Of a DNA stretch of 42,660 bases, positions 14,160 to 33,818 are shown piece by piece. The notes under the pieces are model-generated. The model was not told the origin of the DNA. It did no database searches and was given only the letters and a program-made list of their open reading frames with translations. The stretch comes from Patescibacteria group bacterium (lineage in GTDB: Bacteria; Patescibacteriota; Patescibacteriia; 2-12-FULL-57-11), in contig SCSU01000073.1 in assembly GCA_004299275.1 (NCBI GenBank), positions 1-42,660 of the forward strand, given 5' to 3'. Every line of letters begins with the position of its first letter. Position 1 is the first letter of the stretch. Position numbers and translations under genes: made by a program.

Positions 14160-15425
14160 TTAACCAAGCAATTCTTCCTCAATTTCCATCAAGCGGTTGT
14201 ACTTGGCCACGCGTTCGGAGCGCGAGAGCGAACCGGTTTTGATGTAATCAGCGTTTACCGCCACCGCTAAATCGGCAATGGTCGTGTCGCAGGTCTCGCC
14301 CGAGCGATGCGACACCGCCACAGCGTAACCGCTCTTCTGCGCCATCCTGATGGCGTCAATTGTCTCGCTGAGCGTGCCGATTTGATTAACTTTGATAAGA
14401 ATCGCGTTGGCCGCGCCGAGAGCGATGCCTTTTTTAAGCCGCTCCGCCTTAGTCACAAAGAGGTCGTCGCCCACCAGTTTCAACCGGCGGCCGAGCCGTT
14501 TAGTAATTAGCCGCCAATTTTCCCAGTCGTCCTCGGCCAGCGGGTCTTCGAGCGTCATCAGCGGATATTTTTTGGCCCAGCTTTCAAAAAGCCGCACCAG
14601 GTCCCGGGCTTTCCGCGACTGCCCGTCGCGGCGCAAGCGGTAAATTTTATTTTTCGCGTCGTAGAACTCCGTTGCCGCGGCGTCCAGCCCAAGCGCGACC
14701 TCGCGCCCGGGGACATAGCCGGCGGCGCGAATCGCCTTGACGGCAAACTGCAGGGCCTCCTCGTTCCGAGTGAGCCGCGGCGCGTAACCGCCCTCGTCGC
14801 CGACGAGCGTTTGATGGCCGGCTTTTTTAAGCAGTCCGCCCAGAACGTGGAAAATTTCCGCTCCCGCCCGCACCCGCTCGCGGAAAGTTTTTTGCCGCGG
14901 GATAATCAGGCACTCCTGCAGGTCAATAGCCCAGCCAGCGTGGACGCCGCCGTTTAACACGTTCATCATTGGTAATGGCAGAACGTAGGACGTAGAACGT
15001 AGAACGTAGACGCGACGTAGCCAGCGGTAAAGCGGAACGCGCGCCGCGGCGGCGGCGGCGTGAGCTGCGGCGAGCGACACGCCCAAAATCGCATTGGCGC
15101 CCAGCCGCGATTTGTTTGGCGTGCCGTCCTTTTTAATCATCACGGCGTCCAGCTGTCGGAGATCGCGCGCGTCGCGGCCAATAGCTAGTCGGCGCAAAAC
15201 CTTATTGACGTTGGCGACGGCTCGGAGCACTCCCTTGCCGCCGTAACGTTTTTTTTCGCCGTCGCGGAGCTCCAGCGCTTCGTGCGAACCAGTGGAGGCG
15301 CCGGAAGGCACGCTGGCAACACCAATCACGCCGGAACGCAAAGTCACCGCGACTCCCACCGTCGGATTCCCCCGCGAATCCAAAATTTCCCGGGCTTTTA
15401 CTTCCTTAATCCTAAAATCAGCCAT
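14160..15425 (-). CDS. eno: Enolase
   Basis: 'REILDSRGNPTV', 'SGASTGSHEA', 'VGDDLFVTK', 'ILIKVNQIGTLSE', 'SHRSGET'. Confidence 0.97.
   Translation of the reverse strand: MADFRIKEVKAREILDSRGNPTVGVAVTLRSGVIGVASVPSGASTGSHEALELRDGEKKRYGGKGVLRAVANVNKVLRRLAIGRDARDLRQLDAVMIKKDGTPNKSRLGANAILGVSLAAAHAAAAAARVPLYRWLRRVYVLRSTSYVLPLPMMNVLNGGVHAGWAIDLQECLIIPRQKTFRERVRAGAEIFHVLGGLLKKAGHQTLVGDEGGYAPRLTRNEEALQFAVKAIRAAGYVPGREVALGLDAAATEFYDAKNKIYRLRRDGQSRKARDLVRLFESWAKKYPLMTLEDPLAEDDWENWRLITKRLGRRLKLVGDDLFVTKAERLKKGIALGAANAILIKVNQIGTLSETIDAIRMAQKSGYAVAVSHRSGETCDTTIADLAVAVNADYIKTGSLSRSERVAKYNRLMEIEEELLG
14980..15007 (-). repeat. Heptamer array inside eno (sense CTACGTT x2, CTACGTC, CTACGTT-like)
   Basis: Plus strand AGAACGT AGGACGT AGAACGT AGAACGT; encodes YVLRSTSYVL in-frame. 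Confidence 0.9.
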
Positions 15426-24139: not shown

Positions 24140-24163
24140 CTATGTTCTACGTTCTATGTTCTA
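24140..24163. repeat. Heptamer array CTATGTT CTACGTT CTATGTT CTA
   Basis: 24-nt sequence identical to 32666-32689; contains the queA stop codon. Confidence 0.95.
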
Positions 24164-25234
24164 TACAACAAGCATCGCGTCACCGAAAGAATAAAAACGA
24201 TATTTTTTGCGAATCGCGGCGCGGTAAGCGCGCAAAACTTTTTCCCGCCCGGCAAAAGCCGAAACCAGCGCGAGCAGTGTCGACCGCGGCAGATGGAAAT
24301 TGGTGATGAGCGCGTCCACGACACGAAAACGATACCCGGGAGTGATAAAAAGTTTGACCCACCCGCGCCGGGCACGGGACGCGTTTCGAGATTGGATCTC
24401 CCGCAGGAGATCCAATCTCGTCTGGCTTCTGCCATGCGAACCGGGACCCAGCAGTCCCTCCAAAGCGCGCACGGTCGTGGTGCCGACGGCAATCACCCGG
24501 CCGCCGCGCTTTTTTGTTTCGCGAATAACACGGCTGGTCGCTGTCGGAATTTCTCCCCACTCGGCGTGAATCGCATGCTCCGCGAGCCGTTCGGCCCTGA
24601 TCGGTTGGAAAGTTCCGAGCCCCACGTGCAGAGTTACAAAAACTATTTTTACTCCGCGGCGGCGAATCTGCCCGAGCAGTCGCGGCGTAAAATGGAATCC
24701 GGCCGTCGGCGCGGCGACCGAGCCGACCGCGCGGGCATAGACGGTCTGGTACTCCTCGAGCTTCCGCGGCAGGCGTTTGATATACGGCGGCACCGGAATC
24801 TCGCCGATACGGTTAGCCGCGGCTATGACCGGCGCGGGCGGCGCGTTAAAAATAACAGAAAGCGTCCCATCAGAATTTTTCGCGCGGACAATGCCGCGGA
24901 GCGAACGCGAAAAAACTATCGCTCGGCCGCGGGCGAGCTTTTTACCCGGCCGCGCCAGCACGCTCCAAACGCGGCCGCGCGTCGGATGGAGCAAAAAAAT
25001 TTCAACTCTGCCGCGTTCCGTCTGGCCATAGAGGCGCGCTCGAAAAACCTTAGTGTCATTCATAACCAAGACGTCCCCCCGCCGCAAATAATCGGCAATG
25101 TCGCGGAATACCCGATGTTCAATCCGCCCAGTCTGCCGATTGAGCAGCATTAGACGCGAGGAGTCCCGCGGCCGCGCCGAACGCTCGGCAATGCGCCCGG
25201 GCGGCAGATGATAATCCAAGAGCGAAGTCTTCAT
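24161..25234 (-). CDS. queA: S-adenosylmethionine:tRNA ribosyltransferase-isomerase
   Basis: '[22 protein letters not shown]', '[16 protein letters not shown]', '[12 protein letters not shown]', '[16 protein letters not shown]'. Confidence 0.95.
24387..24420 (-). repeat. Palindromic element CGAGATTGGATCTCC-cgca-GGAGATCCAATCTCG inside queA
   Basis: Arms identical to 8881-8913; encodes ~[11 protein letters not shown] in-frame. Confidence 0.97.
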
Positions 25235-25298
25235 ACCGCAATGCCCATCAACGAATGTTGACATGTCAGTCCTCTTATACTACACTCCAGCCAAGTTT

Positions 25299-26806: not shown

Positions 26807-27724
26807 ATGCTTATCCGCGAGGCGCTTTTCGCCGGAACAAAAAAACTTAGCCGGCATCGCGAGGAGTGGAGCTCCAACGCGCTCGACGCCGAGCTCCTCC
26901 TCGCCTTCGCCCTAAAAAAACCGCGCGAATTTCTCTACAGCCATAACGAAAGACCGCTGCCGCCAGCGGCAGCAAAGCGCTACCGCGCGTATCTGGCGCG
27001 GCGGCTCCGCCACGAGCCGGTCGCTTACATCCTTGGCGCGAAAGAATTTTTCGGCCTCAAAATCGAGGTAAAAAAACGCTGCACGCTCATCCCCCGGCCG
27101 GAAACCGAAATTCTCGTCGAAAAAGCGCTTGAGCTGCTAAAATCTCCAAATACCAAATTCCAAATACCAAATTCCAAATACCAAATTATTGATGTTGGCA
27201 CCGGTTCCGGCGCGATTGCCGTCGCTGTCGCCCAAAATATGCCGCAAGTCCGCGTGATTGCGACGGACAACTCCGCCTGCGCCTTAAGAGTCGCCCGCCA
27301 AAACGCCCGCCTGCATGGCGTCGCTTCTCTGGTCAAATTCACCAAGGCCGACATCCTGCAGCCAACCTTATCCCCTATACCCTATTCACTATCCACTATT
27401 CACTACCCCCTATCCCCTTCGCCGCTCATCCTCGCCAACCTCCCCTACGTCCCCACTCGCGAGTGGCAAAAACTCCCGCCGGAAATTCGCCGCTATGAGC
27501 CGCGGGCGGCGCTTGACGGCGGCCGCGACGGCCTCACGCTCTATCGCCGGCTCCTAGCCCAAATCAACCAGCGCAGCATCAAATCATTCACGCTCCTCGC
27601 CGAAATCCATCCCGAACAAAAAACCGCCTTCCGGCGGTTGATCAAAAAATATTGGCCCAAGGCGCAAATTGCTTTCCACCAAGACCTGGCTGGAAAAATC
27701 CGGGTGGTCGAGACTATGGTTTGA
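26807..27724 (+). CDS. prmC: Peptide chain release factor N5-glutamine methyltransferase
   Basis: 'DAELLLAFAL', 'LIPRPETEILVEKAL', 'DVGTGSGAIAVAVA', 'LILANLPYVP' (NPPY variant), directly after prfA. Confidence 0.93.
   Translation: MLIREALFAGTKKLSRHREEWSSNALDAELLLAFALKKPREFLYSHNERPLPPAAAKRYRAYLARRLRHEPVAYILGAKEFFGLKIEVKKRCTLIPRPETEILVEKALELLKSPNTKFQIPNSKYQIIDVGTGSGAIAVAVAQNMPQVRVIATDNSACALRVARQNARLHGVASLVKFTKADILQPTLSPIPYSLSTIHYPLSPSPLILANLPYVPTREWQKLPPEIRRYEPRAALDGGRDGLTLYRRLLAQINQRSIKSFTLLAEIHPEQKTAFRRLIKKYWPKAQIAFHQDLAGKIRVVETMV
27146..27187 (+). repeat. In-frame 6 x 7-nt array (CCAAATA CCAAATT)x3 inside prmC
   Basis: Exactly 42 nt; encodes PNTKFQIPNSKYQI immediately before DVGTGSG. Confidence 0.97.
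27375..27416 (+). repeat. In-frame heptamer array CTATACC CTATTCA CTATCCA CTATTCA CTACCCC CTATCCC inside prmC
   Basis: Six 7-nt units (42 nt) with degenerate flanking units; lies just before LILANLPYVP. Confidence 0.93.
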
Positions 27725-32665: not shown

Positions 32666-32689
32666 CTATGTTCTACGTTCTATGTTCTA
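32666..32689. repeat. Heptamer array CTATGTT CTACGTT CTATGTT CTA
   Basis: Identical 24 nt to 24140-24163; immediately downstream of the stop of CDS 32691-33818. Confidence 0.95.
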
Positions 32690-32690
32690 T

Positions 32691-33818
32691 TTACTTCACC
32701 ACTGCCCGCCAGACCTGAATCTTGCCGTCGCCGGTGCGCACACCGTAAGCAAAGGAACTGCCCACGCCGTATTCCGCCGGCGCGCCGTAAACTCGCGGCG
32801 CGTTAACCGAATCATTGGTCGCCGCCGTGTGAATCCGGATCGCCGATTCATACGCCGGGCTCGTCCCGCTCTCTGATGCAATCAATTTCTGAAAATATAG
32901 ACCGTCGCCTTTGACCATCAACTGTCCGCGCCGGCTAGAGTCGAGCCAAGAATAAGGCGGAGAACCGCTGCCGATTACCCGCCAGACATTTTCCGCATCG
33001 CCGCGGCCGTAAATGCCCGCTGTATTTTTGACGCCAATCTGGGAAGTGCTCTGCTCGCTTATAAGCCACTTGCCTGAAACACGGTTAAAACTGACTTCGT
33101 AAAGCGCGAGCGCGCTCATGTTAACGGCTTTCAGGTCCTGGAACCACGGCGCGAACTGGGCATAAGCGCGGCCGTCCACAGCGAGAATAAAATTAGCCGA
33201 ACTGCCGTAAACGCTGTTCGCGGTTTTCCAAATCGTGCCGTTGATGTAGGTCTCCCCTCTTTCAATTTTTAGCGTATGCAAACGGGGCGGACCGAGCACG
33301 CCGCCGGCAACATTAATCGCCGCGAAATCTTTGCCGTCGCTTTTATACCAGTGATAAATCGTCCGGCCGTCCGGCTTCCACAGCGGACCGTAGGTCTCTT
33401 CGCCATTCACCGAAGTGGCCATATCGCCGCCGGTCTGATGCAGCGGGTCCTCCCAGTGGTTGGTAATCACCGCCCGCTCCCCGACGCAAGTGCCGGTAAA
33501 ACGCACCAGCGAGCTCGGGGAGTCCTCGGCCATAACCTGCCAGTATTTGGTGAGCTTGGCGCCGTTGGCCTTTAAAGCGAAAAGTTTGGAAATTTTTTGC
33601 CCTTTGTAGCCATTCTCTTTCTGTACCTGCCAAACCAAATAAACGCGCTCGCCGCATTGGAACGCTTTAAAATCCTCTGGCTTGGGAACATTCGAGCTCC
33701 ACGGCGCCGGAATTTCCGCCACCAAATTTTTGGCAACGGGCAAATTGTCCGCGGCGATACCCGGAACCGGAAAAAAAGCGAAATTGACGGCAAAAACGGC
33801 TGAAAGTAATTTTTTCAT
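32691..33818 (-). CDS. Exported hypothetical protein
   Basis: Signal peptide 'MKKLLSAVFAVNFAFFPVPGIAAD'; soluble, aromatic/Gly-rich remainder. Confidence 0.75.
   Translation of the reverse strand: MKKLLSAVFAVNFAFFPVPGIAADNLPVAKNLVAEIPAPWSSNVPKPEDFKAFQCGERVYLVWQVQKENGYKGQKISKLFALKANGAKLTKYWQVMAEDSPSSLVRFTGTCVGERAVITNHWEDPLHQTGGDMATSVNGEETYGPLWKPDGRTIYHWYKSDGKDFAAINVAGGVLGPPRLHTLKIERGETYINGTIWKTANSVYGSSANFILAVDGRAYAQFAPWFQDLKAVNMSALALYEVSFNRVSGKWLISEQSTSQIGVKNTAGIYGRGDAENVWRVIGSGSPPYSWLDSSRRGQLMVKGDGLYFQKLIASESGTSPAYESAIRIHTAATNDSVNAPRVYGAPAEYGVGSSFAYGVRTGDGKIQVWRAVVK

Follow-up and report, generated by a model that had tools for sequence, protein, structure and literature searches.

Heptamer Arrays in prmC

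The window, a stretch of 42,660 nucleotides from a Patescibacteria genome (contig SCSU01000073.1), comes from a 1.0-Mb draft of 73 contigs, and the bacterial group concerned is tiny and uncultured. It carries a prmC gene with two tandem arrays of 7-nt units, and further heptamer arrays are located in eno and at two other reading frames. The features are as follows, with their coordinates in the window.

26807-27724, plus strand: prmC, encoding peptide chain release factor N5-glutamine methyltransferase, 305 aa (TIGR03534, 241 bits, cutoff 199.1; AlphaFold pLDDT 92; best PDB match HemK, 1nv8)
27146-27187, plus strand: array 1 of prmC, heptamer, (CCAAATA CCAAATT)x3, 42 nt, lying in the coil that joins helix 98-112 to strand 127-130 (beta-1, SAM motif I)
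27366-27418, plus strand: array 2 of prmC, heptamer, CTATNCM family, covering about residues 187-204 within the coil that leads into the NLPY strand (207-210)
14160-15425, minus strand: eno (enolase), carrying an array (TIGR01060, 590 bits, cutoff 300)
14980-15010, minus strand: enolase array, CTACGTT family, in frame, read as VYVLRSTSYV in the loop between PLYRWLRR and LPLPMMNVLNGG
24140-24164, plus strand: array of the CTAYGTT family, overlapping the stop codon at the 3′-end of ORF 24161-25264 (minus strand)
32666-32690, plus strand: CTAYGTT-family array, the same 25 nt as at 24140-24164, abutting the stop codon of the minus-strand ORF 32691-33818

The gene is recognized as prmC by an above-cutoff match to the TIGR03534 equivalog, an N-terminal Pfam PrmC_N domain, motif I, and an NPPY-type motif, which reads NLPY here, as is the rule among the aligned PrmC proteins of its class, probably ABY1. 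Array 1 lies in frame within the 305-aa ORF and is translated as PNTKFQIPNSKYQI. The original prediction of an exact 42-nt heptamer array in this gene is confirmed; CCAAATWCCAAATW has five overlapping matches at 27146-27187 and none in 100 dinucleotide shuffles, the TRF score of the tract is 68 at period 7 and 87 at period 14, and these tandem 7-nt units beyond chance make it a heptanucleotide simple sequence repeat. It is not palindromic. The array had been placed directly before SAM motif I; the two do adjoin, except that a single extra Ile codon separates the array from DVGTGSGAIAV. That the words are repeats at the DNA level and not protein-driven sequence, as had also been proposed, is borne out by a period of 7 that is off the codon step, by the presence of other words at the same site elsewhere, and by recurrence of the exact 42-mer inside an unrelated gene, tsaD (G000:C10:78244). 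Array 2, overlooked in the original prediction, belongs to a different word family from array 1 and ends just upstream of NLPY. The 25-nt array common to 24140-24164 and 32666-32690 reads CTATGTT CTACGTT CTATGTT CTAT and lies in both cases at the 3′-end of a minus-strand ORF; at 24161 its final letters are the stop codon (TAG) of that ORF.

Other Essential Genes and Dispersal of the Words

Arrays were also sought in 280 kb of stretches of the same genome taken from contigs with CCAAAT arrays, a choice that biases array densities upward. In this sample they occur inside TsaD (two), RsmA (three), IleRS, ValRS, and enolase, all of which score above their NCBIfam cutoffs. The RsmA arrays are found before motif I and before the NLPY strand, that is, at the same two sites as in PrmC, and the arrays of IleRS and ValRS, with different words, both lie just upstream of the same DRWIL(A/S)RL segment. 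In samples from the class, arrays are present in RsmA in 6 of 30 cases, the loop before NLPY being common to four genomes, and in TsaD in 9 of 30.

The genome-wide search for the word of array 1 that had been suggested returned CCAAATN at about seven loci. For CTATNCM, this genome has 27 matches spread over about 17 loci, G002 has three, and seven further genomes have none; for CTAYGTT there are 68 matches here, over about 38 loci, and zero in three genomes of the same family. One word thus stands at many unlinked loci and at few in relatives, as in a dispersed family. Sharing of an identical word is ten times more frequent between arrays of one genome (4.1%) than between arrays of different genomes (0.4%), and none of 1000 label shuffles reaches this. 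AGCTCCA was found only in PrmC of G053 and G111 among the genomes searched. The flanks of CTATNCM arrays have no shared ends and no target-site duplications. G010, from another family in the class, has about three CTAYGTT-family loci, for which horizontal spread or convergence is possible.

PrmC Across Genomes

Heptamer arrays are present in PrmC in 31 of 128 genomes of the class (27 at a stricter threshold), in five of six Patescibacteria outside the class, and in one of 72 non-Patescibacteria taken as a control. The array site in prmC is therefore not special to the window's genome, since four PrmC loops are occupied across the class (residues 104-129, 139-152, 183-210, and 249-265 in the numbering of the window's PrmC). 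All 45 PrmC arrays in the class fall within these four loops, which make up 25% of the protein length; the probability of such an outcome by random placement is near 1e-27, a value that relatedness makes less extreme in truth. A wider draw from the phylum (11 of 68 PrmC with arrays) adds a loop near residue 50 and another before residue 176. In the aligned proteins of other lineages, the motif I site is occupied by AGCTCCA, ATACAAG, or CGTTACA, and the NLPY site by CACGCTG, GCTTACG, or GGAAATT; since the words differ between genera, many of the array events in PrmC are independent. Carriers at periods 5, 6, 8-11, and 13 number only 0-4 each among the 128 class genomes, including none at period 6 and two at period 9, which are codon-synchronous. 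The reading frame is intact in every PrmC examined.

The sole non-Patescibacteria PrmC of the control set with an array is L171 (Candidatus Saganbacteria), with GGTCGCG x3.5, also in loop 1. The same PrmC loops also receive inserts of other kinds, namely, near-perfect palindromes in L038 (G036) and L036 (G050) and longer non-heptameric inserts in L080 (G084) and L101 (G101). Likewise in these loops, the PrmC of L048 (G019) has a SERSEESR-type insert before beta-5, and that of L047 (G003) has about 25 inserted residues encoded by GC-rich sequence.

Structural Context and Loop Length

An AlphaFold model of the window's PrmC, built from 67 sequences, has a mean pLDDT of 92.3, and its nearest solved structures are those of HemK/PrmC (1nv8, 1sg9, 2b3t, and 1t43). 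In this model, array 1 falls in a coil (113-126, pLDDT 77) between a helix and the motif I strand, and array 2 in a coil (181-206) that precedes the NLPY strand and whose pLDDT drops below 50 over residues 192-200; the remaining two array loops are also modeled upstream of strands (150-154 and 262-266). Loops ahead of the strands of a Rossmann-like methyltransferase are opposite the side that binds SAM and the substrate, and tolerance of extra residues is therefore expected there.

Orthologs without the repeat are shorter at this position, whereas equal length would have spoken against the original prediction. Loop 1 (residues 104-129) is 26 aa in the window's PrmC, and non-carriers have a median of 19 aa (IQR 18-21). 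Across carriers the median is 22.5 vs 19 aa for loop 1 (p = 3.7e-6) and 22 vs 19 aa for loop 3 (p = 7e-4), and alignment of the window's PrmC to PDB 4dzr leaves seven gap positions at loop 1. The polarity of insertion at this site was judged by comparison at the family level. The idea of a repeat-mediated micro-insertion is thus mostly right, in that carrier loops are longer, but the net gain in the window's PrmC is about 7 residues and not 14, so the array partly replaced older loop sequence. Arrays span about 11 aa, yet carriers are only 3-6 aa longer, and this rules against a plain insertion of the complete array. Nor does the length of loop 1 rise with array length (Spearman 0.04). Within a single genus, AAGCTCC stands in the PrmC of G053 and G111 vs AAATTCC in that of G132, and such differences indicate that array words turn over faster than the protein. 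In another same-genus pair, with 70% protein identity, G055 has an array in loop 1, whereas the loop of G084 lacks one, is 8 residues shorter, and contains no seed word.

Period, Size, and Coding Bias

In the 280-kb sample, 34 arrays are detected at period 7 and at most two at each of periods 5, 8, 10, 11, and 13 with the same score. The other flanks from the class, scored likewise, give 70 arrays at period 7, 22 at period 8, and 0-2 at periods 5, 10, 11, and 13. Repeats of two units (score 7-8) number 35 vs a background of about 29, those of higher score (9 or more) 52 vs about 4, and array length peaks at 4-5 units. A slight excess of 2-unit arrays beside a strong excess of arrays with three or more units is unlike the ladder expected from stepwise slippage, and it fits arrival in multiple units or synthesis in a burst. 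The mismatch between units is 0.153 at lag 7 and 0.183 at lag 14; an ABAB alternation, as seen in array 1, is thereby rejected as a general rule, the overall mismatch being higher at lag 14 than at lag 7.

Array midpoints lie within ORFs in 17 of 34 cases by a crude, greedy ORF set, though coding sequence makes up about 87% of the sample, as expected if most insertions into coding sequence have been removed. Arrays in coding DNA are depleted and, in the PrmC of the class, limited to loops ahead of beta strands. The words show no clear bias against stop codons, as 80% of them are stop-free on at least one strand vs 74% of shuffled words.

Origin of the Arrays

Array 1 of prmC is probably a copy of a lineage-specific, dispersed heptamer array, and it was probably retained because the loop around it can accommodate additional residues. 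On the proposed mechanism, arrays would come ready-made with about 4-5 units (about 30 nt), either copied from other arrays or synthesized in one burst, and would not grow from a single 7-nt duplication. Selection would then purge those that shift the frame, add a stop codon, or strike the fold or the active site, and the survivors would sit in tolerant loops before beta strands. The lack of common ends or target duplications in array flanks, of any observed passage from donor to target, and of a rise in loop length with array length speaks against this mechanism. A 7-nt word in frame specifies 7 residues per 21 nt, so that a word free of stop triplets would be open in every register, and the encoded peptide would have no catalytic role. 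A broader proposal, which we put forward only tentatively, is that an active process in Patescibacteria writes or copies lineage-specific heptamer words into many genomic sites, as ready-made tracts of about 30 nt that lack terminal repeats; this would be a minimal mobile or repair-made element that keeps rewriting tolerant loops of essential enzymes.

Alternatively, each array may have grown where it is by replication slippage on a polymerase with a 7-nt slipping register, as considered by Mrazek and colleagues, with word sharing as a secondary effect. Many bacteria have heptanucleotides in excess, and the idea of a polymerase footprint has been put forward (PMC4692102; PMC4679880). Adjacent units are indeed somewhat more alike than distant ones, and certain words are private to one locus, of which AGCTCCA fits making in place better than copying. 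Nevertheless, the 2-unit arrays expected as the first step of slippage are barely in excess, dozens of loci have a common word family that is absent from close relatives, the same 42-mer stands in both prmC and tsaD, and the array-free loop of G084 offers no seed; local growth is therefore possible but rather unlikely as the main source.

Selection for a function, whether as phase-variable switches in which a change of 7 nt turns a gene off or as useful new loops, appears improbable. Genes can be switched by tandem repeats whose unit length is not a multiple of 3, as is established at contingency loci, and a regulatory role has been proposed for heptanucleotide repeats in Geobacter (PMC2700814), but the targets here are housekeeping enzymes (PrmC, TsaD, IleRS, ValRS, RsmA, and enolase), whose off state is expected to be lethal or crippling, and the arrays are short and imperfect, with words that vary by lineage at one loop and positions that track structural tolerance. 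An assembly artifact might be suspected in a metagenome-assembled genome, the window being taken from a draft in 73 contigs; this has hardly any probability, because independent assemblies, including few-contig genomes (G116, two contigs, one of 640 kb), have arrays at the same loops, the frame is kept throughout, and 42 nt is shorter than a normal read. Equally improbable is a repeat selected at the protein level with the DNA following, in favor of which the translation is nearly repetitive every 7 residues; codon-synchronous arrays (periods 6 and 9) hardly occur, different words at one loop encode unrelated peptides, and the same word families also occur outside long ORFs. The copied or burst-made array that survives in a tolerant loop thus remains the preferred reading.

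Comparison with Known Repeat Families

The PrmC loops across Patescibacteria amount to a replicated experiment, with one site, many independent words, and a strict structural filter, and two questions become testable, namely, the reason for a unit of seven and the choice between local growth and the arrival of finished arrays. Annotators should read peptides such as PNSKFQI and HYPLSTI as DNA repeats, not domains; such peptides also shift the alignments of marker proteins and the trees built on them. Although heptanucleotide arrays have been on record for decades, no mechanism for them is, to our knowledge, generally accepted. The Rickettsia palindromic elements are selfish DNA of about 100-150 bp, palindromic and with a shared sequence, that is found in protein-coding genes. 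The present arrays are like them in being small in-frame repeats at tolerated surface positions of conserved genes, and unlike them in that the prmC array is 42 nt with no palindrome and the heptamer arrays have no fixed word.

A search of the literature outside most subscription journals found nothing relevant on heptamer arrays or on tandem or simple sequence repeats in Patescibacteria or Parcubacteria, and the words heptamer, heptanucleotide, and Patescibacteria are absent from the main text of a recent survey of short tandem repeats across the tree of life (PMC12699852). Heptanucleotide arrays as such are already known, and their occupation of essential-enzyme loops was not found described. 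In Geobacter metallireducens, a family of 49 elements consists of four tandem heptanucleotides (GGGACCG) between and within genes (PMC2700814); it differs in that a single word is concerned, in a single species, and that the elements carry an annotation as putative regulatory RNA, and the passages of that article on the family give no analysis of protein positions. GGGNATC in Xanthomonas and GGGGAYT in Nostoc (Mrazek, 2007, as summarized in PMC4692102), TAACTGA in Beggiatoaceae (PMC4679880), and three tandem heptanucleotides in Calothrix (cited in PMC4692102) are further bacterial cases. They share with the present arrays a 7-nt unit, a lineage-specific word with a core and one or two variable positions, and many dispersed loci, and the array size is comparable, most often four units in Xanthomonas and 4-5 in the window's lineage and class. 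The reports on these cases focus on intergenic, G-rich, or regulatory sites, whereas most of the words described here are not rich in G, and the arrays return to the same housekeeping-enzyme loops throughout the class.
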